Below are positions 9,620 through 32,300 of a stretch of DNA of 64,000 nucleotides, in pieces (the stretch's first letter is position 1; each line of letters opens with the position of its first letter). The notes beneath the pieces were generated by a model. It did not search any database and had not been told where the DNA came from. It worked only from the letters and a program-made list of their open reading frames with translations. Origin of the DNA: Halichondria panicea (taxonomy: Eukaryota; Porifera; Demospongiae; Suberitida; Halichondriidae); assembly GCF_963675165.1 (NCBI RefSeq), contig NC_087387.1, positions 1,849,501 to 1,913,500 of the forward strand, given 5' to 3'. Made by a program: the position numbers and the translations under genes.

Positions 9620-10900
9620 AGGGGATTTTGCTATAAAACCAATTTGCACATGGCGTGATGCACATTATTTTTTCACTAACTGTGCATATCTTATTGCTAG
9701 AATGTTTTGTGAGCCATATGTGAACTTTGTGAGTGTTGATCAATTCCCAAAATAAAATCCCAAAACCTCAATTAGTATTATTAGTGTCAATTACACACAA
9801 TCCGTAGGTCAATTTTTCTGCTGATTTGGCTTGCAAAATAATTATTCTAGTAATACGAATAACTATTTTGCGGAATTCATGTGTACGTCTGTTATAGCTT
9901 ACTTTATTTTCTGGGCTAGTTAGATCCTGTCGGTGTGTATTGTGTGCATGCATGCTATAGCTCTATACCCCAATACACTTACTAACACACAGCTTCACTC
10001 TCTCAGCCCCCCCCTGCACACGCACACACACACACACACAGCTAACACTTGGCCTGAGGTGCACGCTCGAACTCGTGCATAGTTATTGCTCACTACCCCC
10101 TGCGTCTTGTTCATTATTCAGCTCGGACTTCAAAGGTGAGTACATTGAGAAAGTTCAAGTTTTTGGGTGAGAATTATGCTGGTATAAAGGGGTAACTATA
10201 TACAGGCTTTGGAAACACATGTCTGTACGGAAACATTAGTTATGGGTGATTCCTCAGACTACATGGCTATAGTGTAAACAGAATCTCTGTTATGTGCCCA
10301 TTATAAAGTTTGTGAGGTTGCTTGTGTGATGGCAATGATGTGGTCTATGTTGTGCTCGTGGTTTACATGAGGGCTGTTATTTTGAGAATAAAATACAGGT
10401 CAAAATTTTCTTGAACATAACTACTTTGGAGTGCAACATAACATGTACAATGTAGCTGTCAAGAAGGGCTTCACTAAACCCGGGTTTGTAATTGCACACC
10501 TTGCACGTAGGGGTTTAATCGAGTGACCCCTGTGGCTAGCCGTCAGTCGTGTCTAAGGTGGCCGGGTGCCCTCACCAGGAGCTGGGGGGGGGGGGTATAG
10601 CTCTAAGAATCGCGATCATTATGTATAAACATTGTACGTATTTTAAGCAGTACATTAGCTATAAGCCTGTGTGTGTAGGGGGGAAGGTTGTGTATAGTAT
10701 ATTAACTATGAGCTTGTGTGTGTGTGTGTGAATGAGGGGGTTGTACATGCATGTCATTTGAGAAGATGAGATGAGGAGGTGAACAATGTTTTAAAATAAT
10801 TATTTTGATTACAGTTTTTGTTGACACTCTATGAGTAAAAGTACTGCAGTCGCGTATGAGCACAGACCACAAACCACATATAGTTCATTAGGTGAGTGGG
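9620..10900. other. Intergenic, no gene seen
   Basis: Contains a CA microsatellite near 10020-10040, G-runs near 10585 and 10680 and a short TG run near 10718. I see no exon. Confidence 0.45.
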
Positions 10901-10908
10901 CTAAATAA

Positions 10909-11530
10909 ACAGGGTTTACATGAGGTTTGGTTTGATGGCGTCTTTCATTAGAACAGCCAGTGCTCACCGGTTGCTACTTTGCAAGGTTATTAGTGTGAAA
11001 GGCTCACGTATAGTACTGGCCATAGAGATATCAAACAGGGTCTGAGGGTTATAGGGGGAATGGTGATTGGTGCTCAAGACAAATCACCAATAAGTGACCA
11101 CTATATGTGGTATACAATTTTTCTTGCACTGCACAACTTTTTAATAGTGAGAACAAAATAATAATGATCTCATTTCATCATTCAGGATGATAAATACGAT
11201 GTATAAATGACTTTTTGTTAACAATTAATCATAGCTTGGTTGACTCAGAGGGTTGGCTACCTGGAACCAGGCTAAAGTGGTACTTGAGGTATCCTGTATT
11301 GATAAATGGTGGTACTGAAAGACAAACTGTGGGTTGTGTGTATAAACTTGTGGTATGCTGGTAAGATGATATCCACGCACCTCTCTGCAGTCTTGCTTTT
11401 GACCGATTGTGATCTTACTTTGCAAGGTTATTAGTGTGAAAGGCTCCCATATAGTACTGGCCATAGAGATATCAAACAGGGTATGAGGGTTTAAATTAGG
11501 GGGAGGAATGGTGATTGGTGCTCAAGACAT
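10909..11530 (-). pseudogene. MTHFD1 exon 13 relics (two) and exon 12 sliver
   Basis: 10909-11115 matches the functional exon 13 region (25236-25480): TGAGGTTTGGTTTGATGGCG, CAGCCAGTGCTC, ATAGAGATATCAAACAGGGT and the flank ATGGTGATTGGTG, with large internal losses. 11416-11530 repeats the 3' part a second time. 11230-11420 matches the intron and splice region of exon 12 (26000-26110). The coding frames are destroyed, so these are dead duplicates of the live gene about 14 kb away. Confidence 0.8.
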
Positions 11531-11599
11531 CCATCACCAATTAAGTTAAGGCTATAGCAAGTATGTTCACAGTGTATATAGAGCACACTTTTTCTTGCA

Positions 11600-11880
11600 C
11601 TGCACACTGTTTTTAAAGTGGTACTAGGGTATCCTGTATTGAAAATGGTGGGTACTGAAAGACAAACTGTGGGTTGTGTGTAGGGGTATGCTAGTAAGAT
11701 GATATCCACTTACCTCTCTGCTGTGACCTTTCTCAGCTTGCTCTGACTGATTGTGATCTTACAGAGATAGCGATCGTTGTTATCCATGCATGAGCCTGTT
11801 CCAGGTGATGGTGGAGGGGTCAATGTCGACAGCACTGCTCAGATCACCAGAGTTCCTGCATTTAAGGGAATTCTACAACA
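11600..11880 (-). pseudogene. MTHFD1 exon 12 relic
   Basis: 11713-11880 follows functional exon 12 (26072-26231): CCTCTCTGCTGTGACCTTTC, GAGATAGCGATCGTTG, GGTGATGGTGGAGGGGTCAA, ACTGCTCAGATCACCAG. Small deletions break the frame, for example the block corresponding to CGGGAGAACTGACCAATC is missing. The preceding 110 bp match the downstream intron of exon 12. Confidence 0.85.
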
Positions 11881-12439
11881 CATACCATAATAATTTAACG
11901 TATCTTGCACCAGTTCATTTATATGCCGGTTCTCTAAAACTGCGTGTGTGGGAAATGCGTGCAATTTCAATGGTACTTGTGTTGAGTTTGACCTTCATAT
12001 CGTTGTCATAACTGTTACTTCACTGAAATTCAACCATTGGATTTCTTGCTAAAACACGCTTCTTCAGCTAAAAGTTGGCATTTTCCGTATATAGTTGACC
12101 ACATAACTTTCGGGGCCGAACTCAACACAAATACCTTAAGGTGACATATTTTCACATGTTTGACATATTTTCACATATTGACATATTTGATATAATTAGG
12201 TAGATTTGTTTGCTGTTTAACTCATTTTGCTGGTATTAAATTCTTGCTCAAGTTGTGAAATTAATGTTATTCATACTCGCAAGTGGTTTTAGATATCTGC
12301 GAGTACAGAGATTTTACTCTCATTCACAGAAATAGCAGAAATTAATACTCGAAAATATAATAATACCTTTTTTTTATTTTGGCTACTGCTACTACATTGC
12401 ATGTGGATAGGAGGCAACCTGTCACATGCAGAGATATGA

Positions 12440-12590
12440 ACCACTGTCTTGTTTTGGTGCATTTTTGTGGGACAATTTTCAGATAACTTTAGGCGGGTTG
12501 TAATTGAACAGTATACGTATCCACCTACTCACAAAATACGATTCCACCCCCTTTTATATCAACTATATATAGTCCCAAAGAACACATGCG
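12440..12590 (+). promoter_or_regulatory. Displaced promoter/5' flank homologous to caspase B
   Basis: GAACAGT, TATCCACC-ACTCAC and CGATTCCACCC-CTTTTATATC follow the sequence directly upstream of the second caspase gene (about 26960-27030). In this copy the homology breaks at AGTCCCAAAGAACAC and resumes at about 14262, just before the Death-domain exon, so about 1.7 kb separates it from the gene it once served. AGTCCCAAAGAACAC occurs at both edges of the interruption. Confidence 0.6.
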
Positions 12591-12965
12591 TTCCCAATCC
12601 CTTTCCTTTACTATCTATGGGTATACTTTAAAGTGCAGCAAATGATCTCTTGACTAAATCATGAAAATCGTAAGTAGGATTGTACCACCCAGACTCAATT
12701 GAAAACATTGGCGCACGTGATGCATTTCCAATCCCTTTCCTATGGGCAGGGTTTAATCTATAGGATTAAATGTTTGGGGGGTAAGATTTGGCGCGCGTAA
12801 ATACACCGCAAATGTTCCCTTTTTACATGCTAGTGCATCACAGTAGATGTATTTACATATTGCACATCACAGACAGTACTAGTGTGATGAATGTCATTGT
12901 TCTACAACATTTGGGGGGTGGAGGTTCACTCCTGCCCCCCATTAGAGGGTAGGTATACTACTATA

Positions 12966-13240
12966 CTATAAAGTGGTACCTGCATGGGGTATCCTGTATT
13001 GATAATGGTGGGGTACTGAAACGGCCAGACAAACTGTGGGTTGTACGTACATGTGTGGATAAGATATGAACATAATTAATATGACTCATGTATATATAGT
13101 TACCTCTCCGTTTTGACCTTTGACTGTTGGTGTCCATGACTCTGCATGGTGATGATGCATGGAAGGGTTAATATCTAGTTGGGAGAACTGACCAATCAGC
13201 AATGCTCAGATCTCCCGGGTTCCTGCAGCATGTGAGAAAT
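12966..13240 (-). pseudogene. MTHFD1 exon 12 relic, third copy
   Basis: This is the most diverged copy: GGTATCCTGTATTGATAATG, GACAAACTGTGGGTTG, GTTGGGAGAACTGACCAATC and CAGATC-CC-GGGTTCCTG match 25970-26231 in order. It lies inside the DNA that separates the displaced promoter from the caspase A exon. Confidence 0.75.
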
Positions 13241-13249
13241 TAATCACAT

Positions 13250-14345
13250 GCACCAGCAAACATCACACTTCCTGACTGAACCGAGAACTATGCATGCATG
13301 CACAATAAATTAGTATCACAAAGTGTCATCAGAGTTTTGCAATATATATTCCTATAAAAATTATACTTTCATCCGATTTGGTGTCTTTCATTAGAGGTTC
13401 CACCAAACTGTAATGCTGCATGCTGATGATTAACCTTGTTGACTATTATATAAATTTAAAAGGGTTTCTGACAGACTATGGCAAGTCTTTGACTTTGTGC
13501 TTCCAACTGCAACCATAGGACCATCGTAGAGAGCCTCTTTTGGCTTTAGACAAGTGTGTAAGCCTTCTTGACAACACAATAGAGGGCATAAAGCCACAGG
13601 AGACAAGTATTTGTTAAAAATAATACGGAAAGAAACTAGTAAACAAACTAGTTTACGGTATAATTTTACAAAGGTTTACTAACGTGAACGAATTCCCCAG
13701 ATTCTGGGGAACTCAGTTCGCGCATGTGCACTATCACCCATGTAATAGAGACCAGGCCGTATTTTAATCTATCTATGCTCAGATCAAGACGGCCGATGGA
13801 ACCTACACTCGTCCCATTACCAAGCTCACGGTAATACTACCGATTGACAAACAATGAGTAACTGTTGAACAATGGCAATGTACCTAAGACCATCCGGTCT
13901 TGGCCGGCCGGCGGTATGTTGATGTGTACAAGCTAGGTGTTTAATTACTTAATGTTATGCAATATTTACTAGGTTCATAGTTTAATGAGTTTGTGGTAAA
14001 TGTGTTGTTTTGTTCAATTTTCTTTGTTGTGCGCAGGGCCCCTTGCTCTGGCCCTGCCCCCTTTGTTTTTATATTTGCCATCACCCACTATCTTCCTCAG
14101 TTGTTGTTGTTATTTGTCTAAACTCACTAAGAATTGTTGTAAAGGGTCAAGTCAACTTGTACTCTAGGATAAGTAGGAGCCTGTCTCCCAACAATAGCTA
14201 ACTCTGAAACTAAACTAGCCTGTCTAGTTCTTAGTCTATACAAGAAAGAGCTCAACAACTATAGTCCCAAAGAACACCTGCCAACAAAGTGAGTAACCTA
14301 GTACAGTAGCACTAATTAGCGAACAAGTACTAATTACTTTGATAT
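13250..14345. other. 5' flank of caspase A
   Basis: I recognise no exon. 14262-14350 matches the immediate upstream region of the second caspase gene (AAAGAACAC-TGCCAACAAAG, then GTGAGT and a CTAG context), so it is probably the 5' UTR and proximal promoter of the gene starting at 14352. Confidence 0.5.
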
Positions 14346-14351
14346 ATACAG

Positions 14352-17300
14352 ATGTCCAGCAAACTGACAATTACAGATCTTCAGTGGATAGCAACAGAGC
14401 TGCTACTAGCTAAAAACAAATGGCAGGATATAGGATTGGCACTAGGTCTTGCAGATCACGACATAGAGGGAATAGACGGCATAAACCCCCAAAAAGGACT
14501 AACAAAAATGCTGTCTACTGTTCTCCAAAGGAGAGCTGATCTCACCTGGGAAAAAATTATTGCCGTCTTAAAAACCCCATTAGTATCACAAGATGCTCTA
14601 GCAGACAAACTAGGTAAGTTTTTTTTCTCAATGCCATGCCAGCTGGCACATAAATTGTTATCTGCAAAACAAACCTAAAAGGCGATGAGATAAAAACAAA
14701 TGTTCTTGAATATGCATGGTAGAGTAATGTGTGGTTGACGCAAATATGCGGCATCCGCGGTTACCAGCAGCTTATTCCGTAATGCGTCAACCGCGGGAAT
14801 CGGAATAAGGTAATTACATGTTTCACGGATGCAACTGGGTCTCTTTAAAAACAAAAACAAAAAACCCCATGCGTTACCCTTATAAGTTTATTTTGTTACC
14901 ACAACTTACCAGTGTGGTTTAGGGAAGCCTAACAATTTCTTTCAGTGGCAGAAACTATCTAAAAACTCCTTCTCTCCCTTAATATTTTTACTGGTCTGCA
15001 TGGTCCCCACAATGGTTATGGAAGTCCGTGAAACATGTTCATTTTCGCTTAGCCTAAGTATTGCACTGAAACAAAAAATAGCACTTGATCGAAGCAGTAC
15101 CATGGTCCTACACTACTATAATTATTTGTGTCTCTGTGCACCTGCAGAATTAAACCCAAAAATAGGCAAGCCAAAGGGTCAAGGTAAGTGATTACGTTTA
15201 TTGAAACACACACCTTGACTATATCCTTCTCTCGTAGGAGCCTCAAAGAAGCCAGAACTGATTCAAAAAGGTATAACATTATAAAAAGTTAGTGCACACC
15301 ATTCATACTATCCTATACACTATAGACTCAAGCTCTAAAGCTAAATATGACTCCATTGATGGTGTACCAAACAAAGACCCTGGTAAGTACATGCATGTAA
15401 TGTATTGTAAGCCTTCCATACTATGTCAGCATGGATATATAGGTCTACCCAAATTGAATGCTACGCAAAAGCAATGGTGGAATACATGCAGGGTTCTATT
15501 TAATTAATGATTTGGGGGGAAGAATATGAATTAAGTGAGGGGGGTGAGGGGGTTCTCCCTGGAAAGAAAAAATATTTTAGCCTTCTCACAATGCAGTTAT
15601 AAAGTAAGACTAGTGAAGGGGGAAGTGTACCATCGGCCAATTTCCGTGCAATTAACACAAATGACCTAGCAAAAGAGCACACGGTCAGCCCTTGTGACGA
15701 CCGATCGATAATTGGGGTGTGGCTCAATTTATCCAAGCATGCGCAGAAGAGTTAGCAAACACATGCTAAAAATTGCTAGTCCGAGATTAGCCTCTGTTGT
15801 GTGTAGCTATGTAGATCTAGCTACATGTTTAAACAGCTAGTAAAGGGGACGTAGTTCAAGTTCTCTAGCTCTAGTCTTATAAGTCTAACCTCTAGGAAAA
15901 GAAAAGTATATTTAGTTGATGATTAAAATTGCAAATTTATATAAACAAGAAAGACTCGTACACAGTTTAAAGAGTATACTTACGTGCATGTATAGTGCTG
16001 TGCACGTCCTAGCAAATTAGTAATTATGTCCAAACAATATGTTGCTTGGTCTGACAAATAGCCAAATAGCCAAGCAAACTTTAAAAGTTATTTTGTACAC
16101 TGGGGGGGGAGCTAGGGATAGAACCCTGGTGGAATGGGCTTATTTTTGAAAAACAGTAGATTTGTCTTGAATTTTCGTCCACTAATTGAGAAACAATGGG
16201 CTACATGCCAGCGCTTGAAATTCAGTTATACAATGAATGCAATATTTTAATAGTCAATATACAACGAAGGGTAATACAACTTTTTACTGTCTGAAATAAA
16301 TTATACACATGCAGATATAGGTAGTCCACAACCATATGCAATGAAAAATCGACAAGCTCTGATCATCAACATCATCCGGTACAATGATCCAAAATTTAAA
16401 GATCGACGCGGCTCAGACAAAGACCAAGATGCATTGGTCGAAACGTTGTGTGCATGTCCAAACAAACCTAAAAGACGATGAGATAAAAACAAATGTTCTT
16501 GAATATGCATGGTAGAGTAATGTGTGGTTGACGCAAATATGCGGCATCCGCGGTTACCAGCAGCTTATTCCGTAATGCGTCAACCGCGGGAATCGGAATA
16601 AGGTAATTACATGTTTCACGGATGCAACTGGGTCTCTTTAAAAACAAAAACAAAAAACCCCATGCGTTACCCTTATAAGGTTATTTTGTTACCACAACTT
16701 ACCAGTGTGGTTTAGGGAAGCCTAACAATTTCTTTCAGTGGCAGAAACTATCTAAAAACTCCTTCTCTCCCTTAATATTTTTACTGGTCTGCATGGTCCC
16801 CACAATGGTTATGGAAGTCCGTGAAACATGTTCATTTTCGCTTAGCCTAAGTATTGCACTGAAACAAAAAATAGCACTTGATCGAAGCAGTACCATGGTC
16901 CTACACTACTATAATTATTTGTCTCTGTGCACCTGCAGAATTAAACCCAAAAATAGGCAAGCCAAAGGGTCAAGGTAAGTGATTACGTTTGTTGAAACAC
17001 ACCTTGACTATATCCTTCTCTCGTAGGAGCCTCAAAGATGCCAGAACTGATTCAAAAAGGTATAACATTATAAAAAGTTAGTGCACACCATTTATACACT
17101 ATAGACTCAAGCTCTAAAGCTAAATATGACTCCATTGATGGTGTACCAAACAAAGACCCTGGTAAGTACATGCATGTAATGTATTGTAAGCCTTCCATAC
17201 TATGTCAGCATGGATATATAGGTCTACCCAAATTGAATGCTATGCAAAAGCAATGGTGGAATGCAGGGTTCTATTTAATTAATGATTTGGGGGGAAGAAT

Positions 17301-19235
17301 ATGAATTAAGTGAGGGGGGGTGAGGGGGTTCTCCCTGGAAAGAAAAAATATTTTAGCCTTCTCACAATGCAATTTAAATGCCTTAAATACCATTTATCGT
17401 TAAGACTAGTGAAGAGGGAAGTGTACCATCGGCCAATTTCCGTGCAATTAACACAAATGATCTAGCAGAAGAGCACATGGTCAGCCCTTGTAACGACCGA
17501 TCAATAATTGGGGTGTGGCTCAATTTATCCAAGCATGCGCAGAAGAGTTAGCAAACACATGCTAAAAATTGCTAGTCTGTGATTAGCCTCTGTTGTGTAT
17601 AGCTATCTAGCTACATGTTTAAACAGCTAGTAAAGGGGACACAGTTCAAGTTCTCTAGCTCTAGTCTTAAGTCTAACCTAAGAAATGATATGATATTGAT
17701 GATTAAAATTGCAAATTTATAAACAAGAAAGACTCGTACACAGTTTAAAGAGTATACTTACATGCATGTATAGTGCTGTGAACGTCCTAGCAAATTAGTA
17801 ATACCGTATATGCTCGATCAGAGGCCGCTCTTGTATAAAGGCCGCACTCAAATAGTAGCCTCCCTTGCTAGTAAAATGAAACATTTAGTAGCCGCTCTCA
17901 AATAGTAGCCTCAGTAAAATTTAACTCTAGGATTTCTGCACGTGGCAGCCAAAAAAATTAATACTAGCAGCTAGCTACATGTACGTAGCTACAAGTAGCA
18001 GCTTGTTAGTGCTTCACAAAGACTTTCTCATGACAGTGTTCAAGTTTATGCAGGTGAACACAACTTTTGATGACAAACTAAATTATCTGGAGCTTAATAA
18101 ATGCCGCTCTTGAACAGTGGCCTCTCTTGAATTGTAGCCTCCTCTTCCATATCAGCAAAATGAAACATTTAATTAGCCGCGGCTCCTGATCAAGCATATA
18201 CGGTATGTCCAACCAATATGTTGCTTGGTCTGGCAAATAGCCAAGCAAAAATTAATTTTAAAAGTTATTTTGTACACGGGGGGGGGGAGCTAGGGATAGA
18301 ACCCTGGTGGAATGGGCTTATTTTTGAAAAACAGTAGATTTGTCTCAAATTTTCGTCCACTAATTGAGAAACAATGGGCTACATGCCAGCGCTTGAAATT
18401 CAGTTATACAATGAATGTAATATTTTAATAGTCAATATACAACGAAGGGTAATACAACTTTTTACTGTCTGAAACAAATTATACACATGCAGATATGAGT
18501 CCACAACCATATGCAATGAAAAATCGACAAGCTCTGATCATCAACATCATCCAGTACAATGAAGAAATGAAAACGAGACTCGGCTCAAACAAAGACAAAG
18601 ATGCACTGGAAGAAACGTTAAAAATGCTGGGATACACTGTGCATATTGAAACAGACCTAAAACGCGATGAGATAATTCCAAAAGTTCTCGAACATGCAGA
18701 AAAAGACAAACACTGCGACAGTTTTATCTGCTGCATCTTGGCACACGGTAATCAGGGTGTGGTATATGGGTCCGATGGAGAGAAATTAGAGATAAAAGAC
18801 ATTTCAAAGGCACTTAACGAGGTAACACAATTGAGAGGAAACCCGAAAATATTTTTCTTTCAAGCTTGTCAGGGAAGTGATATTCCAATAGCTCTGGCCG
18901 AGGTTGATGATTGGTCCAGTACAAGCAGTGCTAAGCCTATAGAAATAGATGCAGCCATTCCGAAACTGCCTCGAGATAGCGATTTCTTCTACGGCTGTGC
19001 ATCGTCTTTTGAAACTGCCTCCATGCGAGACACTAACGAAGGCTCACTGTACATACAGGCCCTTTGCCGAGTCTTGAAGAGCAAGTACCAAGAAGAAGAT
19101 CTTCTAACCATGGTTACCAGGGCCCACTATCTAGTTGCTGAGGATGAACGACAACTTAAAAAAGGGAAAAAATATGTCTACTACCAACAGCAACCACAGC
19201 TAGTATCCACCTTAAGGAAGCAAGTGCACTTTTAG
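14352..19235 (+). CDS. Death-domain caspase, gene A
   Basis: Predicted cysteine protease of the caspase family with an N-terminal Death domain, an initiator-type layout for apoptosis or immune signalling in the cytosol. Exons: Death domain 14352-14613; linkers 15148-15183, 15238-15270, 15326-15382; second linker set 16939-16974, 17027-17059, 17105-17161; catalytic exon 18493-19235. With one linker set the product is about 376 residues. The catalytic exon has the His in LAHGNQG (about residue 214), the Cys in QACQG (about 255, the form used by caspase-8/10) and the small-subunit motif ending in GSLYIQALC. Asp-rich stretches between Cys and small subunit (AEVDD, IEID) are likely cleavage sites. 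Every internal exon is phase 1 at both ends, so any linker set keeps frame. Which set is used is unknown. Its sister gene is at 27098. Confidence 0.85.
14672..14732 (+). pseudogene. Caspase catalytic-exon sliver in intron 1
   Basis: Translates as NLKGDEIKTNVLEYAW, matching [16 protein letters not shown] of the live catalytic exons, then runs into a stop. The same sliver occurs at 16465-16525, where it is fused to the truncated exon. It marks an older caspase exon lost by recombination. Confidence 0.75.
15488..16135. repeat. Inverted-end repeat in caspase A intron
   Basis: GCAGGGTTCTATTTAATTAA at the left and a run ending GGGATAGAACCCTGG at the right form an imperfect terminal inverted repeat, each followed inward by a G- or C-run. 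The second copy lies in the duplicated unit (about 17265-18310). Related ends are seen near 12755, 32875 and 33760. Likely an old non-autonomous transposon family. Confidence 0.5.
16315..16481 (+). pseudogene. Truncated caspase catalytic exon
   Basis: After a normal acceptor (GCAG to 16314) the exon reads correctly for about 47 residues ([16 protein letters not shown] and on to QDALVETL). It then jumps about a dozen residues short, frame-shifted into the sliver sequence, and stops at TGA 16479-16481. It lacks both catalytic His and Cys. If spliced to the upstream Death domain it would give a protease-dead Death-domain protein; if skipped it is silent. Confidence 0.85.
17804..18203. mobile_element. 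TA-flanked MITE (CCGTATATGCTYGATCA family)
   Basis: CCGTATATGCTCGATCA at the left end is mirrored by TGATCAAGCATATACGG at the right, with TA on both sides. The unduplicated left unit (about 16018) shows the empty site (AGTAATTATGTCC against AGTAATA-element-TATGTCC), so this is a real insertion after the tandem duplication. The interior has repeated GCCGCTCTCAAATAGTAGCC motifs and no protein. Confidence 0.88.
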
Positions 19236-19334
19236 TACGTATAGAACACACAGATGTAGCAACGTAAGAAATGCTTAGCACATGTATATACATGCATGTA
19301 CAGTAATATAATTATAGTTTTATAATTACACTCA

Positions 19335-19920
19335 CATTTGTTAATTTGTACATGTAGTTTCCTTCTCAATCAAATTACTGAAAATCTTCTCTTTCCATTT
19401 TGTGGGCACCAATCAATTCAAGACAGCCTGAGGGCACATTTAAAGCATTATACTTACATAAATAGTGATGGCAGGTTTGGGGTAAGCGAGAAAAGCTATC
19501 ATCACTGATTGAGTACGCACAATATTTTAAAGTGTCATGCATGTGTAGTATACTATATAAGTGGTTATGCTATAAACAGCTTAGGAGGTTGCACAAGGGT
19601 TTGATTGATCTTTTTACCCTTTGATTGGCCTTTCAAGGTCTTAGAGGAAACTGGAGTAGATTTAGCTTTGGTGCTCATCTTCAAGAAAGGAATCATAATC
19701 ATGATCGATGCAGACGACTATATACAGTAATAATTTTGTACTTTATTCGAAAGAGTATATTCTTGTGGAAGATCCGGGTGTCAATATAAGCGGCTAGGAG
19801 GTTATTGGCAGCTGTGATTGCGTGGATGTCACCCATCAGGTGGAGATTGAAGTCTTCCACTGATGGGGATCACCTGAGAGTATCCCCCACCGGCAGCACC
19901 CCCTGTGATGATAGTGTGTG
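19335..19920 (-). pseudogene. MTHFD1 exon 11 and exon 10 relics
   Basis: 19345-19432 matches exon 11 (29951-30045): GGAAAGAGAA, the TTCAGTAATT remnant, and a lost splice end. 19755-19910 matches exon 10 (30256-30410): GGTGCTGCCGGTGGGGGATA, TCAGGTGATCCCCAT, CACAGCTGCCAATAACCTCC, with small insertions that break the frame. Order and strand are the same as in the live gene. Confidence 0.88.
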
Positions 19921-20069
19921 TGTGACTGCATTATAGTTAAATTATAAGGCTTACTTTTAATATAGAGAAAGAAAATTAGGAGTCACATATACATGTATAT
20001 ACCATTAGATCGCGTGATTTCCTCAAGCATGTGTATATACAGTGAAACAGGGAAACATAATACAGAAAA

Positions 20070-20950
20070 AAAAATGAAAGCACCGCTGGTGCTGATGCCT
20101 CGGTGGAGGTGCCAAAGCTACATAACATAAATCTACTAATAGCTAGCTTTTATACACATTATAATTATCATGATGAACATTTTTAATTTTGCTGCATCTA
20201 TAGAATCACAGATCGAGAGTGGGTAATGATTGATGATGATGATTGTTGTTAAAAACGATCGATGCCAAAAGTTTTAAAGTCTAAATTAATGGCTGCAAGT
20301 CAGCAGAGCCTAGACGGGAACCAAGCCTATCTACAGTACAGTTTTGTTCTGGCTGTTACGCAATAGCATTATGAATCTCATTATTTTTAAGTGGGTTTTA
20401 GCCAATAGCGATGAATATCACTTGTGTTGCCCACGCCTCTCAGTCAATCCAGCGTGTGCAAAATTCACACGTGGTAAAGTTAAGTGGGTGTGATCAAATA
20501 CTGCAATCTGATTGGAGCCGGTGGAATTTCACTGGCAGAATAAAACTGTAGATAAGCTTGGATCCCGTCCTCCTTCCGTACAACGGTCGAGGGCGGCGAC
20601 GCCCGTCTAAGCAGAACCTTGCAGCTAGCTCTCTGCTCACTTAGTGCAGAGCTAACTACTAAGTAGAGTATAGCAACACTCGGTGAACAAGTTTTGCTAT
20701 GGACTCTTCTGAAAAGGCTGCAATGGCATTCCAAGTAAGCAAAACTAAGCATAACTCGAGAACGAAGCTTTATTTTGCAAATCCATGAATTAAAATCCAA
20801 GATAACATGACTAGAAGCCTATATAGAAACTCTTACTTGCACTTCATTGATCCTTGAACAGCTGTAGCAGTCTACACACACACGTACACACGCGTGCGCA
20901 CGCACACCTCGCTTGCACATGCGCACTGAGGCATAATTATTAGATCATGC
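20070..20950. repeat. Dispersed repeat, inverse partner at 38320-38890
   Basis: The reverse complement of 38320-38890: it shares CTGATGCCTCGGTGGAGGT, the GTTGTTAAAAACGAT block, GCAGAGCTAACTACTAAGTA, CATAACTCGAGAACGAAGCT and the terminal CGCATGCGC-GAGGCATAATTAT. The copy here carries about 290 extra bp (about 20310-20610) bounded by inverted TAGACGGG/CCCGTCTA. A third partial copy lies at about 42050-42300, and isolated ends at 1325-1372 and 40622-40670. Confidence 0.75.
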
Positions 20951-21010
20951 AGAGAATATATTACACACATACATGCAGTGAACAACAGATAAAGGACCTC
21001 GGTTACTTCT

Positions 21011-21270
21011 TATATGTACACACATTGAAGAGTGCACACCCAAAGGTAGTCTCATGAATCAGCCGCACCTTTGGTGTCCCCAAAGGTGCGGCTGATTCAT
21101 GAGACTAACCCAAAGGTTGGTCCCTGTATGGTTGCCTCACACAAAACACATTGAGCTAGCTTGAGGTGAGCTCCCAATGCCTGCGTCAGACCAATGGTAG
21201 AGATTGAAATCCTCCATGGGGATCACCTGAGAAGACCCACTAGCACACCCCCTGTGATGATATATATAGG
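21011..21270 (-). pseudogene. MTHFD1 exon 9 relic fused to exon 10 piece
   Basis: GAAGAGTGCACACC, CAAAGGTTGGTCCCTG, GCCTCACACA, GGTGAGCTCCCAA-GCCTG and AGACCAATGGT follow exon 9 (30698-30852). The sequence then jumps to GAGATTGAA-TCCTCCATGGGGATCACCTGAGA from exon 10. It is the leftmost-in-gene part of the decayed MTHFD1 copy. Confidence 0.85.
21047..21107. mobile_element. 61-bp perfect fold-back with 9-bp target duplication
   Basis: Two 28-nt arms (21047-21074 and 21080-21107, starting TAGTCTCATGAATCAGCCGC) are exact reverse complements with a 5-nt loop. ACCCAAAGG directly flanks it on both sides (21038-21046 and 21108-21116). The live MTHFD1 exon 9 near 30700 gives the empty site. A related TGATTCATGAGAC motif occurs at about 22752. 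Confidence 0.9.
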
Positions 21271-21479
21271 GAAGGTGACTGTTTTATCAGGGGAAGTATA
21301 CCGTATAGCGAATAACTTTCAAACTGAGGTTCGCAAAAATGTATGTTCAATATACAAGTACGTGTACTAAAAAAATGCTATCCTCGAAAATATTACATGC
21401 AAAATTTACAAATACAGCTGTTTCTCGAAAAATTAGACCCTCAAACATTACCTGCTATATAGAATACGATGCTAAATTA

Positions 21480-22290
21480 CGTACATGTATATTGAACTAC
21501 TCTGTCTGTGCACTTGGTTATGCTGACAATATAGCCCTTCTGGCCCCCTCACCATCTGCCATGCGTATCTTAGTGAAGTATTTGCCTCTGAATTCGATAT
21601 AACTTTTAATGCCAGCAAAACTCAACTTATTTGTTTCAGCAATCGTCCGATGACACTACCTAACGGAGTATTCAGGTTCAATGGAGTTGCTCTTCAATTT
21701 ACAGACATAGTGACCCACCTTGGCCACACTCTTCATCGCAAGTTGGATGACGGAGTTGATATTGCACAAGTAACTTCCGCTATGTGCAGGAAAGCTAACT
21801 ACCTGCTCCATACATTTAGTGGGTGTGATATGAGAGTGAAAACTAAGCTAATTGTGACCCACTGCCTCTCACTATATGGTTGTGTTTTGTGGAGAATTGA
21901 CAGTAAGAAAATTCGTACTCTTGAAACTGCTTTTAACAATATTTTAAGAAAAATTTGGAGATTGCCTCGTCAATGTCACACAAGAATTCTCCACTGTGTT
22001 GCTGGAGTTCAGAGTTTGTTTAATAGAATACCAGATCTTTTTTCTAACTTCATTTCACGTGCTTTAGCATCGAAATCCACCCTCATTAGATCGGTTTTCT
22101 CGTGGGCGTCTAGCCATGCATTCACAGCAGTCGGGGCTAACAACCTGATCAAACGGAATTTTATAAAAGTTTATAGCAGTGACGACATGGTTTGTGCGGA
22201 CTTTGTTCGGGATGTCAGGCTTGGCCGCATTTCATTCAACTCGCGTGAAGATACATCAATGATAATTAACTCTATCTGCTGCGATTGACT
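21480..22290 (+). mobile_element. 5'-truncated LINE fragment (reverse transcriptase end)
   Basis: The first part reads GYADNIALLAPS, the non-LTR reverse-transcriptase motif with the second catalytic Asp replaced by Asn. A small deletion near 21570 shifts the frame. The next part (21575-22288) has the usual downstream RT/thumb sequence (LGHTLHRKL, then SLYGCVLW and RIRTLETAFNNILRKIWRLP-like residues). It ends in an (ATA)n-like tract around 22388, typical of a LINE 3' end. No endonuclease or full palm is present, so it is dead. Confidence 0.85.
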
Positions 22291-22599
22291 TTAAGTTGGA
22301 CTAACTATTCTTGCACTATAGCTATAGTACTATACTATTACTATACATGTAATATAATATGTACACCTATTCTGGTGTGTTCAATGATAATAATAATAAT
22401 AATTATTATTATTATAAGGCATAATTCTATACTGAACAAAAGTGTAGCCTCAATTCCAAGCCGCATTTAATCAGCCTAGTATATATCCATGCATCAATGC
22501 AGTGCGCTTAGTTGAGGTCAAAGTTCAATTGCATTCCAGCAATACTTGCTTGTACATCCTCTGGCCACTCCAAATTTATTTTTTTTGGCCACTCCAAAT

Positions 22600-22995
22600 C
22601 AGAGGAGGTCGGACATCACTTGAACTTTGCACTGTGTCTGTTCCAGCTGCTTTTCTTTTTTGCTGACTCAGCAGTAGCGTCTACTGTACTTATTATTTTT
22701 TTTTATTACTTCTGCTAGTCTCTATTAATTTTTAGCCGCCCTATAAAAGTGACTGATTCATGAGACAATATTTCTGCACGGTTTCTGTCACTGAATCTGT
22801 TGACAGCTAGTTGTGCTTGGTGTCTATGATGGTTACTGGACCTAACCCTATCAGTACATAATACCCATCTAGCTAGATCCGCCTAGATCCAGTCATGTTC
22901 TATTGCTGAGTCAGCAAAAACGAAAAGCAATTTGACCGGAATGTCATTAAAAGGTCATAATTAGTGAAAGTTCAAGTGATGTCCGACCTCCTCTG
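22600..22995. mobile_element. CAGAGGAGG-family element, 9-bp target duplication
   Basis: It begins CAGAGGAGGTCGGACATCAC and ends with the reverse complement GTGATGTCCGACCTCCTCTG. It is flanked by ACTCCAAAT at 22591-22599 and again at 22996-23004. The insertion is nested in another repeat whose GGCCACTCCAAATGAGACT end is mirrored near 23245-23263. No coding capacity. Confidence 0.92.
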
Positions 22996-23358
22996 ACTCC
23001 AAATGAGACTCGCTACCTCTAGTCATTATGGCCATTATTTCTCTAATTATCCAATGAAATATTGAAATCATTTTTTTTCTTGTTCTTTGTTGCCTCTATT
23101 GGGCTCTAAGCACATGGTTGGCTGAATTTTTGTAGCTAATTCATTGATGACGTAACAATTTATATGATTTCATAGTAATGAATAATGATAATACTGCTCA
23201 CATCCGTTTATAATTTACTGGAGTCTCTGACGGAAAACTACAGTCTCATTTGGAGTGGCCTAACCAACTGAGTCTCAAAAATATATACTGGGTATTGTAT
23301 GCAACAATTAACATGCACGCACTATACTTAAAAATCTAAAATGTTGTCCCCATACTAT

Positions 23359-26300
23359 CTAAAACAATCCATCAATCTCTTCAGTAACAGGGTCAATGTC
23401 TATATCAAAGAAGCATGGTCGAGTGGGTAGCCCAGGCATAGTACTGATATCTCCCACCAGGGGGTATATAAACCCCGCCCCTACACTCGCACGGATATCT
23501 CGTATCGGGACCACGAAATCTGACGGTCGACCTTTGAGTGACGGGTCATGTGACAGAGAGAGGTGTGTCTTTGCCATACAAATAGGGAGTCCACCGAACC
23601 CTAGTTGCTCATAGCGATCCAGTTTGATCTTGGCTTCTTCAGCAAGGGTAATGTCAGATGCTCCGTAGATCTTGCAAGCGATAGTGCGTATCTTCTCCTC
23701 GAGGGACAGAGAGAGGTCGTAGAGGAACTTGAAATTACTGGAAGAAACGGATGCTTTCCTCACGGCCTCGGCCAAGTCCACCGCACCAGCACCTGTGTGT
23801 GTGTGTGTGTGTGGGGGGGGGGGGGGTGAGGGTAGCATGGTAGGTATAGGTACTTTGTATACAGGCAAATACAAGTTGATACACTGTACCGTACTACATG
23901 TACATGTATGAGTATATGTACACGTGTAATGATAACATGTTTAGAGACTCACGTATACGTATATACGTCGGTACTGAAGGAAGACTATACACCCAGAGAG
24001 TCAATAGACCAGAGTAATTATGTCCCTAAATATTAGAGTTAAGAGCTAGGCTCATATAAGTCACGCTCCAGTTGATTTACACTATCTCACCTCCTGTTGC
24101 CCAGTGACTGCAGATGATGGCATCGAATGCTCCAGAAGCTCGACTGAGCCTCTGTACTAGCTCCTGCTCAGCTAGACTATCTGTAATAAATCCATTGATT
24201 GCCACGACAACAGGGACACCAAATAATAGAACATTCTCAATGTGTTTCTGAAGATTTTGGAACCCAGCCTCGACCAGCGGCAGGTTCTCCTGTGAGGGTG
24301 TGCGTAGTGTGAGGGCGGCTAGACACTGTGACCATAAGGCATAATTTAATTACACATGTGTGTATTATCAAAAGTTCATTAGAAAGGGTACGCAACTCCA
24401 CTTAAAACCGTAGTAGGCGTTTCTTCTAACCTACGTCACAACCACATGCTATGAACTGTGAAATCAAATTTGCAAGAGCATTTTACACAGTCATATCAAG
24501 ACAACTAGACTTTGTACTTTCTGTAAATGGAGTGTTTCGGTAGGTAATAACTGACCTGAGAGTAGACAGGGTCTAGCGGCTGCCCTGAGGTGACAGTTGG
24601 CCCACCACCATGCATCTTGAGAGACCTCACTGTTGTTACCAGGACAGCACAGTTGGGAGCCAGATCTGCACAAGGAGGGAAGGTAGTCTGTGCCATTGTG
24701 TTCATTCATTTATCATGCAACCATGCACATACTCTTTACACATGCAACACAGTTATGTAAGCAATCCCTGTACGTGTGCTAATCTTTATGCGTACACAAT
24801 ACATTTTTATGATCAAAATATGAATGTACACACTTGTATAGGCAAGGACCATTAACATGCAATACAGTACTACCATGCACAATACACTACATTTTCCCAC
24901 CCACCACTGTATCTGCACTTGATGTTGAAGAATTTCTCCATGCCAATGTCCGCTCCAAACCCCGCCTCTGTGACCACAAAACCCTCCTCTCCCACTAGCT
25001 TCAACGCTATTTTGTCTGCCAGTATGGACGAGTTGCCGTGGGCGATGTTGGCAAATGGTCCAGCGTGCACAAATACAGGTGTGCCCTCTGAAAGTAAAAA
25101 GACTTAGGACATGGTATGCAGTTTTGTTTAAGTTATTTACCACACAGAATTCACATCACATAACCACAAGTAAATCTCATTAGTAGCTAAACAATGTTAG
25201 GGGTAAGTGGTTAAACATCATAAGTAAATTCTCACCCAGGGTTTGCATGAGGTTTGGTTTGATGGCGTCTTTCATTAAAACAGCCAGTGCTCCTGTTACT
25301 CCAAGATCATCTGCCGTTATTGTATTGCCCTGGCTGCTACTGGCAACCACAATCCGTCCAATCCGCTCCTTCATATCCGCGAGGTCATTAGTGAGAGCGA
25401 GTATTGCCATCAGCTCGCTGGCCACAGAGATATCAAACTGGGTCTGTGCATGGGGTTAGGGTGAATGGTGATTGGTGTCTACCACTGAGTTAAAGGCTAT
25501 ATAATTGGGGCGTCGCCCGATTTCTGTGTAAGTTTGTTTCATTCGTTTCACGGAAACCGGGCGTTGTGTTATTCACAGTTCGGTACAAAACATATCAAAT
25601 TTTCTTGCACTGCACAACTATTTTCCAGCCTTAATACCGTATAGCGGGTAATTTTCGGGGGACAAAATATTTGTGGTTCAGACATTTCATGGGTAATATC
25701 GAGCTTGCACTGCAGGTAAAGGTAAGCAAGGTCGTGGGTAAAATATTCGTGGTCAGACTTTCAACCACAAAAACCACGAATATTTTGCCCCACGAAAATT
25801 ACCCTCTATACAATAGTGAGAACAAAAATAATGGTCTCAAAATAATTATGGCTGTAAACGTTAAGAATAAATCATATGTTGGTTGAAGGGTTGGCGAGCA
25901 GTGTATAATTATACTTGGAATTCAGGCTAAGTTTAAGGGATGCAAGTTAGCCCTATACTATGAAGTGGTGCTTGGGGTTCCTGTATTGATAATGGTGGGT
26001 ATATACTGAAAGATAAACTGTGGGCTGTGTGTATAAACTTGTGGTATCCTGGTAAGATATGATCCCCTCACCTCTCTGCTGTGACCTTTCTCAGTCTTGC
26101 TCTGACCGATGGTGATTTTACGGAGATAGCGATCGTTGGTATCCATGACTCTGTTCCATGTGATGGTGGAGGGGTCAATGTCCAGTCGGGAGAACTGACC
26201 AATCTCAGCACTGCTCAGATCACCAGGGTTCCTGTATTTAAAGGAAATTATGCAACAATTAGCATTATAATTATAGTGCATGCATAATTATGTAAAGAGT

Positions 26301-29300
26301 CTTGAATACGTACACAAGTTCATTTACAAGTTCTCTTAATTATTATGTCATAAAAATGTGTGAGGGTATAATTATAGCTAGAAATATGCAATTGTTATGT
26401 TATCATCTTGGGTATACATGCACATGCTAGTCTCGCGGGCCATACTCAAGTATCAGATTGTGGAGTATGGGACTATACATATGCTGGCTGCTACAGAGTA
26501 CATGCATAATTGTAATTTGCTAGCAGCCTTGACATCAAACTCAAAGTGCACAAAATGTATAATTATAATTATTGGCAAAATAATTATAGTGCAATGTACT
26601 ATTATACACCGTATAACAGGAAAATTTGCTGGGTATTATATTTGGTGAATGAACCATTTGAACTGACTTGGTGTTTCTTAATTTGGCGTCTCAGGCGTGG
26701 CTACTACAGCAATGACGTTGTATCCACCGGAAAACTTTAATTTTAGGTTTTAAATTTGGTGGTCTTCTGTAAAATTTGCCAAATCACCAAATTAAAACAG
26801 CCACCAAATATTTTCAGTTATACGGTTATACCCAATTTAGGGCAGACACATATAGTGGACAGCAGCTGTCACAACACAGAGATAATAAATAAACCATAGT
26901 GTGCATATTGTGGGCGGGGATCATTTATTCAGACAAATAGGCAAGTTGTGTGTGTAATATTGAACAGTGTGTTTATCCACCCACTAACAACGATTCCACC
27001 CACTTTTATATCAACTAGCCACAAAGAACACTGCCAACAAAGTGAGTGATCTAGCACATTAAGCAATAATTAACAGTATAACTATAAACATACACAGATG
27101 TCCAGCAAACTGACCATTGATGATCTCCATGAGATAACAACAGAGCTGCTACCAGCTAGAAACGAATGGCAGGAAATAGGAACGGCTCTAGGTCTTAAAG
27201 CATCCGACATACAAGGAATAAACAGCACAAAACCGCAACGAGCACTTTCAACAGTGTTGACTACTGCCCTCCAAAGGAGATCAGATCTCACCTGGGGAAA
27301 ACTTATTGACGTCTTAAGAGAACCATTAGTATCACAAGATGCTCTAGCAAACAAACTAGCAAAAAAATATGGTGGGTTGTTTTTTTAATTCCCCGTGCCA
27401 GCTGACACAATGTTACTTTGAAATTCTATAAAATGGCTACCTTCTCTCGTAGGAGCTTCAACGATGCCAGACAGTCGAACACTCCCAAAAAGTATAACAT
27501 TATGAACAGTTAGTGCACACCATTCATACTATCCTATACATTACAGACTTAAGCTCTAAAGAAGACTCCATTGATGGTGTACCACCACCAGACGAAGACC
27601 CTGGTAAGTGCATGCAATTAAGCCTTCTGTGCCAATCCATACTACGTATATCTGTATGGGCAATACACGATATACTATACACACTCTACCGAGATTACAC
27701 CTACTCAAATTGAACGCTACGCAAAAGCAATGGGTGCATGGAATATGAAGAGTTCTATCTTAATGGTTTGGAATTAAGCATAGATATAACTATATAGAGG
27801 ATATGGATTGAAAACAAAAGTCAAAATGTCTACTTTTACACAGGGTGTGTGGCTTAATTCTGAAACCATCCGTGTTGCCGGCCAAACCCCGGGAACCACT
27901 ATTATATTTTGAAGGCCTTATGCAGAACTTTTTAAGCCTCGCACCCCTTGATGGTGGGTATATTATGTGGAATTATCAATCAAATTCTCGATTGTTGGGA
28001 AATAAGCTACAGGTACACAGCGTTTTGTTCACACTTCTGAGATACTTCTGTATCAGAGGAAGTCCGACATGCGTGCACGAATCACTACAAGTTCAGTGCA
28101 TTGATGTCATTGCGGTGTCATGTGATAATGCCTGGCCACAATGCACTGAACTTGTAGTGATTCGTGCACGCATGTCGGACCTCCTCTGCTTCTGTATATA
28201 TACCATACTGGAAACCACTCCCCTTCTCTTGAAGAGAAAGGGACTGGAAAGCTGCAGTGTTGAGAGTTGTCCCTTTGTAATGCAATTGCACGTAATGCGT
28301 AAAGTATGGGTGATATTGCTTCAGCCTCGAGAACAGACCATCAGTGACGTACTTATACTCGAGGCCGATATATTTTGTGCCAGCGCGTGGGCGGTGGCAC
28401 ATGACTATTTGTGACGTTTGCATTCTTGTGGGAGTGTGACATTCTTCATGCAGCACTGAGACACTCTCAACATGACAGCTTACCAGTCTCTTTCTCCCCA
28501 AGAGAATAAGGGACTAGTAAGCTGCCAGTATATAAGTATTATAGTATAGCTAAGACTGCCTAACTAAGTAGTGTACTAGCTGTATGACTTCAACAATGGA
28601 AAAAAAGTGCACGTTCAGCAGCAGGATTGTTGTACTGACAGTAAGCCAATCGTTTGTCTCCTAGCCTGAATATATAGGCCTCGAAAAACCGGGGCAACAC
28701 GGATGACAATTAGAGACCGAATCCATTCCCACTCCATCTTTTCTTAATCTACGAATGAAGCAAGGGAAATTTTTCTTTTAGTTTCTCAGAATCAATTTAA
28801 ATGCCTTGAATACCCCCATTAAATAAATTTAGTGTTTTAAATTTTTAGACTAGTGAAGGGGGAAGCTGAATTGTTTGGGGGGAAAGCTTCCTCCCTGGTG
28901 GAATAGGCTTATTTTCGAAAAACGGTCGATTGGTCGAATTTTCACCACCTATAATTGGGTTACATATCAGTGCTTGAAATTCGCATATAATTATAGTCAA
29001 TATACAACAATGGTAATCGAAGTGTATTTACATGCAGATAGTCCACAACTATATTCAATGAAGAATCGACAAGCTCTGATCATCAACATCGTCAAGCACC
29101 CAACGAAAGAGAGACACGGCTCAGACAAAGACAAAGATGCACTGGAAGAAACGTTAAAAATGCTGGGATACACTGTGCATATTGAAACAGACCTAAAACG
29201 CGATGAGATAATTCCAAAAGTTCTCGAACATGCAGAAAAAGACAAACACTGCGACAGTTTTATCTGCTGCATCTTGGCACACGGTAATCAGGGTGTGGTA

Positions 29301-32300
29301 TTTGGGTCAGATGGAAAGGAAGTCGAGATAAAAAAAATTTCAAAGGAACTTAACACGATAAAACAGTTGAGAGGGAACCCGAAAATATTTTTTTTCCAAG
29401 CTTGTCAGGGAAGTGATGCTCCAAAAGGTATAGCTGCGACTGATAATGTGTCCAGTGTAAGTGGTGCTAAGCCTATAGAGATAGATGTAGCCATTCCGAA
29501 ACTGCCTCGAGATAGCGACTTCTTCTACGGCTGTGCATCGTCTTTTGAAACTGTTTCCATGCGAGACCACAACGAAGGCTCACTGTACATACAGGCCCTT
29601 TGCCGAGTCTTAAAGAGAAAGTACAAAAAAGAAGATCTTATAACCATGGTTACCAGGGTCCACTATCAAGTTGCTGGGGATGAACGACAACTACCAACGG
29701 GCGAGTCCTACCAACAGCAACCACAGCTAGTGTCCACTTTAAGGAAACTAGTGAAGTTTTAGTTCGTAGAACATGCATACAGACGTAGCAACATCCAGTT
29801 AGTTTTAACAAGAAATGTACGTATATAAGGCAATTTAGCACAAGGTTAGTGTAGGTAGGAGATAGTATCATTATAATTATACATGTACATGCATGCACAT
29901 GTATAATTATAACGATACTGACATGTATAGTACTACATACACACACTTACGTTTTGTTAATTCCCAGTTTTTTTAGCCTCCTCAATTGAATTGCTGAAAA
30001 TGTTCTCTTTCCATTTTTTGTGGGCACCAGTCGATTGAAGAGAGCCTGAGGGCAAGACAGTCACTAATTATAGTAGGAAAAGAAATTCAAAGCATTATAA
30101 TTATACAATTGTGCCGACAGGTTTGGGTAAGCGAGAAAAAGCTATCACTGATTGGGCACAATACTTTAAAGCTTCATACTAGGTGGTTACGCTGTGAACA
30201 GCTTATAGTGATCATAATTATTGAAGCGGACTACATGTAAAATATTATTATGTACTTTGTTCGACTGGGTGTTCTCGTGGAAGATCCTGGTGTCAATCTG
30301 AGCAGCTAAGAGATTATTAGCAGCTGTGATAGCGTGGATATCACCCGTCAGGTGGAGATTGAAGTCCTCCATGGGGATCACCTGAGAGTATCCCCCACCG
30401 GCAGCACCCCCTGTGATGATAGGGTGTGTGTGACTGCGTTATAGAAAAAATGAGGAGGAACGGTATCTATAATTTTATAATGTAATTTGATGAAAGGTCA
30501 CATATATACCATTAGATCGCGTGACGTCCCCAAGTATGAAAATATTATATCAAGAACAACAGATAAAGGACCTCTGAATAAGGGACACTGTATCCCATCT
30601 ATAAAGGACAGAACTTCTGTCCCAGTTTACATACATAATAATACCTGAGGCTACATAATAGTTATTATAGTACACGCATTGAAGAGTGCACACCTACCTT
30701 TAATCCCAAAGGTTGGTCCCTGCGATGGCTGCCTCACACAAGCAAACACATTAAGCTTAAGGTGAGCTCCCAAAGCCTGGGCCAGACCAATGGTGGTGGT
30801 GCTCTTGCCCTCGCCAAGGGGGGTGGGCGTCACTCCAGTCACAACCACGTACCTGTGACAGTGTGAGGTGCATGTGTGGGGTGAGGATGCATACGAAGTG
30901 ACGATGCAAGAATGGCTACTAGAGAAAAAGTGTGCAAAATGAAAGGCAGAATGAAATGAGCTCATGCAATAATTATGCTTAGCCAGTTCGCTTGCATGTA
31001 CATGCACAGTAGATAGTAGAGTAGAGCACTGAAGTGCTAACCCCCCTTGGCAGTCAGTAAAGTCAGCAAAAAAGCCTGGAGTTTTAGAAATATATGGCTC
31101 CTATAGTATATGTTTTGGCAACAACCCCACATCATAATTATAGCTCTAGAGATCCTTCCATTGTTCCTGGTACGGGATCACTTCAAAAAAAGTAAAGACT
31201 GCATGCGTGTAGCTAAACCCTCGGCTGTTGACATGAATAAGAAAAGTAATAAGACCTATAGAAACCAGAAGAGTGTTATATGAACCTATATATGTGAACA
31301 ACATACACATAATATACATGCATGTACTGTGACAGTGTATCTATATATATAGATAGTCACCTTCCATTGGGCCTTTCTTTGAGTCTTTCCAGCACAGAGA
31401 GTGAGACCTTCGCTTTGTGTGTGCCATACAGCTCCGTCTGCAGGAGGGAGGAGATAAAATATAGCCGAGTCTTGGGCAATGTCTACTTAAATTGCTCGAA
31501 TTGTGTCCTAGGTAGACTTCATGTATTATATGTCATGTACAGTACACGTCAATAGAAGCATTGCATGGCCATATGTTGTAAAACGAGGAATACGGAATGG
31601 AATGCATGCATGGAATATGGAATGGAATATATGGAATGACGTAATGAAGAGTAAAAACATATTTTTAGCGGACACATGCTAGCAGAGCTGCATGTATAAA
31701 AGAATTAAGAGAGGGCATGCAACAGCAAAACAGCAGAATCCACGATGAAGGTTTCTATAAACTTCTCTGTCGTTATAACATGACTGAGCCGTGGCTATGA
31801 CTGGTGGCTAAACCATGTTTTTAGTCTCTCATTAGGGGAGCATTAGAAATGCCTAATTATTATTTAACTAGCGGAGTTGAGGGCTAATTAACAGTCATCA
31901 GTCATAGTCCGGCTCACCCTCCAAGGAGCGTTGCGGTAATTATGGGTATGTATAGTTGTACTTTATGAACTGCCTCATGTTCTTGAATGTGTAGTTAGGG
32001 TTAAGTGCAAGGCATGCACTTAGCTATGTTTCTCGGAGCATCGAGAATTAAATGTGCATAAAGTGCTAAAAATAGAATTTTTTCTTTTTAGTACTTTTTT
32101 ATTTTTAACACTTCATGCAAATGCACAATCATTCATCCGCACATTGGCACCCTAAACGCTAGTGGTAGGATTTAACTTCAAAATGATACCAAGATTGCTA
32201 AATGCGTGTTAATTCCCAGCTTGAGATATAGTATGAAACGATATTTTGATTTCTCCATACAAAAGATGATCATTCAGTATGTCTCTTCAACACTGAGGTA

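Follow-up and report, generated by a model that had tools for sequence, protein, structure and literature searches.

Birth-and-death multigene families whose members undergo gene conversion are a known pattern. Nested genes that are carried along with their hosts offer a second point of comparison: in teleosts, omp lies antisense within capn5 and was duplicated with its host in the whole-genome duplication, as summarized in PMC13378369. A caspase expansion in the mussel Mytilus coruscus, outlined in PMC10967218, is a further parallel, to the extent that there, too, caspases have expanded in a lineage. The locus described here, in the sponge Halichondria panicea, resembles the omp/capn5 system, as summarized in PMC13378369, in that an antisense intronic passenger was co-duplicated with its host and the two then met unequal fates. 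A literature search that covered titles and the beginnings of abstracts for part of the results returned nothing on this locus.

Live MTHFD1 gene and the caspase in its intron

The stretch of DNA analyzed here (the window) spans 64,000 nucleotides, C11:1849501-1913500, of a genome that was searched as 131 Mb in 39 contigs; coordinates without a contig prefix refer to the window, and exon numbers (e8 to e17) are those of the original prediction. The minus strand of the window carries the live MTHFD1 gene. Its formate-THF ligase part consists of ten exons, e8-e17, that run from 31437 to 23359 in a single open spliced frame with canonical splice sites (AG acceptors at 10 of 10 exons, GT donors at 9, the last exon ending at the stop), and was assigned to the C-terminal formate-THF ligase region by its match to the Pfam family FTHFS (PF01268, E=6.7e-246). 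Upstream, on the same strand, five N-terminal stretches with open frames (n1-n5, 44740-46880, approximate limits) are presumably of the dehydrogenase/cyclohydrolase type; in a genome-wide protein search they retrieved, besides themselves, a paralogue on C4 (36-58%) and a weak row on C10 (E=0.776). The long MTHFD1 intron upstream of e8 also contains two copies (72%) of another sequence with open frames, at 34455-35127 and 43116-43798, possibly representing another nested, duplicated gene; a Pfam scan of the frame of the 34455-35127 copy gave no match at E≤0.01. A dispersed repeat with copies on many contigs is found at 25634-25817, in the live e12-e13 intron.

Between live e11 (30045-29951) and live e12 (26231-26072), both on the minus strand, lies caspase B (27098-29762, plus strand; PF00656, E=3.6e-47). 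The gene models confirm the earlier claim that this intron carries an antisense caspase, and, judged by the limits of its coding exons, caspase B is a nested gene, located inside the e11-e12 intron on the opposite strand. It comprises a death-domain exon (27098-27371), a linker exon (27547-27603), and a catalytic exon (29038-29762), all on the plus strand, and we infer a further linker exon at 27453-27491. The spliced frame is open with exons 1, 4, and 5 and is broken in a version with a 40-base third exon.

Caspase A (14352-19235, plus strand; PF00656, E=9.2e-46) has AG/GT exon sites and an open frame. Its death-domain exon (14352-14613) and catalytic exon (18493-19235) are accompanied by three linker exons (15148-15183, 15238-15270, and 15326-15382) and their duplicates (16939-16974, 17027-17059, and 17105-17161), all on the plus strand. 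Because the length of each of these linker exons is a multiple of three, both sets can be read in frame, and the frame of the gene is open with one set, both, or none. The linker exons are contained in a tandem duplication (14667-16024 and 16460-17802, 94%), and a truncated catalytic-exon relic of this internal duplication is found at 16315-16509 on the plus strand.

Caspases A, B, and C, the last encoded elsewhere on C11, have a caspase domain (Peptidase_C14), with scores of 156.8-161.6 bits against a curated cut-off of 21.4, and the best PDB match of caspase A is caspase-8 (E=4.4e-29). The motifs HG and QACQG, which we take to contain the catalytic His and Cys, respectively, are present in all six members of the family (caspases A-F). 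In caspase A, both align with caspase-8; its spliced frame is open and its catalytic residues are intact, as had been predicted. The death domain is harder to recognize: 4 of the 6 members matched PF00531 at E≤1 (best, 2.6e-4), caspase A gave no match, and the score of caspase C (16.5 bits) is below the cut-off of 22.6. In a PDB search with the death domain, metastasis suppressor 1 took the top row (E=0.014), followed by RIPK1 (0.27-0.32). Judged by their family, the proteins are probably initiator-type caspases recruited via the death domain. Death-domain-like exons are widespread in this genome, with at least 107 rows found with the exon of D at E≤0.1 and at least 112 with that of B at E≤1e-4 among the best 150 candidates scored in each search, false duplicates included; many of them are on C14 and C1.

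Host relics around caspase A

Block A (10910-21232) contains pieces of MTHFD1 exons e9-e13 on the host strand and in host order, with caspase A between e11 and e12. All of these pieces are on the minus strand. Exon e13 is represented by its 3' end (10910-10965) and 5' end (11016-11041), 96% and 92% identical to live e13, and the exon search revealed a second partial e12 (11379-11418) and a second e13 5' end (11457-11482). The main e12 relic of the block (11714-11827 plus 11830-11855) has an internal deletion and a 4-bp insertion, and a third e12 relic lies at 13126-13222 (80% over 102 columns). On the other side of caspase A are relics of e11 (19361-19427, 84% over 69 columns) and e10 (19760-19902, 89% over 143 columns), followed by an e9 fragment (21109-21198) that is fused, with a 3-bp overlap, to a second e10 fragment (21196-21232). 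This reversed e10|e9 fusion at the right edge of the block is a duplication junction. The expected frame-broken e9-e13 relics flanking a caspase in host order and strand were recovered except at this edge, where e10 is fused to e9 in reverse; e12 is indeed present in three copies and e13 in two, its 5' end twice and its 3' end once.

Four direct stops interrupt the 11 relic pieces of block A (703 aligned bp in total), along with 15 indels, of which 12 shift the frame by not being multiples of three. With its frames broken and its introns kept, block A has the makeup of a duplicated (unprocessed) pseudogene. The best relic matches, to e10 and e12, had E values of 3e-49 and 3e-37, respectively, far lower than chance would give; the identical exon search of five other loci (L016-L020) produced a single 24-bp match (E=0.002). 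Two other sequences lie in or next to this block: a repeat at 20072-20940, with other copies along C11 (e.g., at C11:1796298-1796858, beside the e12 of block C, and at window positions 38323-38892), and, at 21527-22288, a 253-aa open frame without a Pfam match, which in our judgment resembles the end of a reverse transcriptase encoded by a non-LTR retrotransposon.

Block A aligns collinearly, introns included, with live MTHFD1 e9-e13 and its antisense caspase B. The uncorrected divergence is 0.157 in the introns (898 bp; intron distances were computed from the alignable parts only) and 0.143 at the synonymous sites of the caspase domain (21.5/150.2); the death domains have 11 synonymous differences at 63 sites. 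The relic exons of block A differ from the live exons by 29 synonymous and 28 nonsynonymous changes in 703 bp, which translates into a synonymous divergence of ∼0.14 (29 per ∼204 synonymous-equivalent sites, at a neutral synonymous share of 0.29). The similar Ks values anticipated for caspase and relics were thus found, and the agreement of the intron, caspase synonymous, and relic synonymous divergences supports a joint duplication, as DNA, of the host segment and the passenger of block A.

Other host relics on C11

A genome-wide protein search with MTHFD1 e8-e17 returned 20 rows, which map without exception to C11 at 1.797-1.881 Mb: the 10 live exons and 10 relics, 3 of the latter in a false duplicate. 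The more sensitive exon search, which covered 144 kb around the window, gave 26 relic rows, 6 of them in the false duplicate; two additional plus-strand rows of 17 and 18 bp were taken as chance matches and dropped. The remaining 20 pieces are all on the minus (host) strand, all derive from e9-e15, and lie at C11 1.797-1.871 Mb: 11 in block A, 5 in block E (e14 once, e13 and e12 twice each), a pair of e12 pieces close to caspase D, a single e12 in block C, and one isolated e15 piece (C11:1819339-1819407), whose nearest caspase, D, is 9.8 kb away. Relics of e8, e16, e17, or n1-n5 (the limits of the latter being approximate) were found neither in the genome-wide protein search nor in the 144-kb exon search, and 10 kb at the caspase F locus (C11:2299786) contained no host relic at E≤0.05. 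A genome-wide DNA search with e12-e13, in which the best 40 of 1379 candidates were scored, is no evidence of absence, because it was filled by the dispersed repeat from that intron. No relatives were found in prokaryote and virus contig collections, which say nothing about other animals.

Beyond block A, the relics lie upstream on C11, next to caspases of the same clade; the locus is a decayed local array. A single segmental duplication, the simplest history initially proposed, does not account for the additional relics in block C, in block E, and near caspase D or for the isolated e15 piece. Nor do passengers always outlast their hosts: fragments of caspases occur past the intact C and E genes, and host pieces without an assignable caspase are found at C11:1827590 and 1828833 (both e12), along with the e15 piece.

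The false duplicate is located upstream of the window, where two 9500-bp stretches with the same sequence, C11:1827989-1837488 and 1837689-1847188, flank a 200-N gap (1837489-1837688); no other run of N occurs in the 144 kb covered. Because the 9500 bp are identical on both sides of the gap, this neighboring 9.5-kb duplicate is most likely a scaffolding overlap artefact, and the repeated D and E caspases, with their relics (C11:1838533-1847188), were not accepted as genuine copies. This likely false duplication adds two to the caspase count.

The e12 of block C (C11:1796870-1797032), ∼76 kb past the 3' end of the live gene, stands out among the relics. Its splice sites are intact, its only indel is a 3-bp insertion, and its identity to live e12 (95.6%) exceeds that of the flanking introns. 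Six of its seven differences, a small number, are synonymous (P=0.003 under the neutral share), and its synonymous divergence (∼6/46 sites) equals that of the C-B introns (0.124). Gene conversion was rejected as the cause of this conservation, given a synonymous divergence as high as that of the introns. For most of its history, the exon seems to have been under coding constraint, and the host copy of block C may therefore once have been a working gene.

Tests of selection on the caspases

A caspase Ka/Ks well below 1 had been predicted; for caspase A, this was not the case. The Ka/Ks of its caspase domain is 0.69 (95% interval, 0.41-1.28) against B and 0.70 (0.45-1.12) against C; the corresponding values are 1.15 (0.64-2.31) and 1.57 (0.86-3.35) for the death domain and 0.82 (0.54-1.24) and 0.89 (0.61-1.31) for both domains joined. 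The B-C comparison gave 0.51 (0.34-0.85) for the caspase domain, 1.05 (0.51-2.60) for the death domain, and 0.62 (0.42-0.91) for the two joined, and the caspase pairs among D, E, and F gave 0.41-0.45, with every upper limit below 1. Changes unique to A (16 synonymous and 61 nonsynonymous) fit neutrality (16/77, P=0.13); those unique to B (17 and 27, respectively) and to C (23 and 53) do not differ from neutral either.

The spliced frames of caspases A and B run open from exon to exon, and that of caspase C is open across the joined death-domain and catalytic exons. The 703 bp of block A relic contain 12 frameshifting indels, compared with none left in the 1005 bp of the A death-domain and catalytic frames (linker exons excluded), a difference with P=2e-5 if equal opportunity is assumed; Fisher tests used counts rebuilt from rounded rates. 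In the A-B BLASTN alignments, 2 of 5 indels in the catalytic exon, 2 of 2 in the death-domain exon, and 3 of 5 in the linker exons have lengths not divisible by three; the frames being open from end to end, these represent compensated frame changes or slips in the alignment. The original prediction of selection on the passenger independent of the host is, accordingly, not supported by the Ka/Ks test but is supported by the retention of the open A frame next to relic exons with 12 frameshifts in 703 bp. Frame retention argues that caspase A has been functional for most of its life; the combined pattern can be read as that of a functional caspase frame in which amino-acid change is relaxed or diversifying.

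Apparent exchange between caspase copies

Caspases A and B share a 177-bp identical tract, a length that was reached in 0 of 2000 permutations, and for A-B and for B-C, none of 5000 permutations produced a run of agreeing variable sites as long as the longest one observed. In the A-C pair, such a run is of ordinary length (P=0.25) and the identical run is mildly long (P=0.02). Low local divergence may contribute to the signal of conversion, given that caspase C, too, differs little within 33 codons of the tract shared by A and B (pS 0.054); with those codons removed, the A-B dS is 0.184 and dN is 0.131. Gene conversion among the caspase copies appears to have taken place.

In a 10-row tree (midpoint rooted and with a long-branch warning), A, B, and C group together (100/99), and the six members A-F make up a clade (100/100) to which four further caspases from this genome do not belong; within the clade, D, E, and F form a second group, whose internal branching is without support. 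As an unrooted topology cannot show exon exchange, synonymous distances were used for E and F. When B is compared with E and F, synonymous differences are saturated in the catalytic exon (pS 0.74 and 0.78, respectively) but not in the death-domain exon (0.34 and 0.32); the pattern is reversed between D and E or F. By these distances, E and F look like chimeras of a locus-type death-domain exon and another (D-type) catalytic exon. In a protein search with the death domain of B, F ranked 4th and E only 48th of at least 112 rows, so the locus-type origin of the E death domain rests on synonymous distance and position, whereas that of the F domain is clearer.

Block E combines e14-e13-e12 with a catalytic fragment that, over ∼100 bp (102 columns for B), is 80% identical to B and A, 76% to D and E, and 74% to C. 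A simple co-duplication of host and whole caspase was rejected for this block: the B-E caspase pS is 0.74, compared with a p of 0.241 in the block E introns and a pS of 0.34 in the death-domain exon, and co-duplication fails for the catalytic exon because it is far more diverged than the host relic. A broader and tentative idea, to which we give rather less than even credence, is that the e11-e12 intron might act as a source locus that repeatedly exports caspases with recombined death-domain and catalytic exons. The death domains would change at about the neutral amino-acid rate or faster, in a combinatorial, immune-like diversification, and the leftover host exons would date the exports.

Discussion

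The whole locus is very probably explained by local duplication of a nested caspase together with host exons, followed by decay of the host exons and retention of the passenger, within a birth-and-death family. The e11-e12 intron of MTHFD1 is the home of an antisense death-domain caspase, and segments with the caspase and its flanking host exons were copied locally several times to the 3' side of the host, as the collinear, intron-bearing blocks show. A single host gene remains whole; in the copies, its exons have decayed or been lost. Caspases A and B have kept open spliced frames, splice sites, and catalytic residues, and C has kept an open death-domain and catalytic frame; the frameshift excess in the neighboring host relics points to past selection on the caspase frame. 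The caspases themselves may be viewed as a birth-and-death family on account of their fragments, apparent conversion, fast death domains, and apparent exon exchange, a mechanism suggested by the divergence patterns.

Alternatively, caspase A could be recently dead or drifting, with no constraint on either the passenger or the host relics and its frame kept open by luck and by gene conversion from B. The A-B Ka/Ks of 0.69, not different from 1, the value of 1.15 for the death domain, and the neutral-like changes unique to A would all fit such a history, as would the 177-bp identical A-B tract; moreover, the chance of acquiring no stops from substitutions alone is 0.046 at the intron rate and 0.20 at half that rate. 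Indels are much harder to reconcile with drift: at the intron indel rate, the neutral expectation is ∼17 frameshifts in one lineage, and the probability of an open frame is 5e-8, rising to 0.015 at a quarter of that rate. Since the splice sites and catalytic motifs are also intact and the duplicated linker exons are in frame, this explanation is considered unlikely. That the relic exons were retro-inserted one by one, or that they reflect an artefact of the assembly, is highly improbable. The probable false duplicate next door, with its 9500 identical bp around a 200-N gap, shows why an artefact had to be considered, but the sole N run of the 144 kb lies outside the window, A and B differ by ∼16% in their introns, and the 20 relic pieces were counted without the false copy; retro-insertion is disfavored because the block A alignment includes introns.

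A far closer call concerns the host copies. It is only slightly less than an even chance that nothing but partial host segments, within e9-e15, was ever copied, so that the relics were nonfunctional from the start and there was never a redundant host gene to decay. In favor of this history, the genome-wide protein search and the 144-kb exon search gave no relics of e8, e16, e17, or n1-n5, even though e17 is the longest exon, and nonsynonymous changes are plentiful in the A relics (28/57). The e12 of block C points the other way, with its nearly all synonymous changes (6/7) at an intron-level synonymous divergence, intact splice sites, and one in-frame indel. Synonymous changes in the A relics (29/57) likewise exceed the neutral share (P=6e-4), although part of them belongs to the live gene.

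With local duplication and retention of the passenger as the preferred reading, this locus is an unusual case of birth-and-death evolution and not a categorically new one. Local duplication, fragments, conversion, and a fast-evolving recognition domain are all shared with birth-and-death families; the location in an intron of a housekeeping gene sets it apart from such families in general. Owing to that location, the caspase copies bear host exons as tags; with their order and frame known, these exons serve as internal yardsticks on the passenger's own branch and make selection on a young, fast-evolving caspase family testable without an outgroup. The locus also suggests that amplification of a nested gene can proceed independently of host function, the reverse of the outcome for omp and capn5 in teleosts, as summarized in PMC13378369. 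There, a whole-genome duplication was followed by repeated loss of the passenger ompb and retention of the host capn5 (PMC13378369), whereas here the duplications are local and repeated, the host copies decay, and several passengers remain intact.
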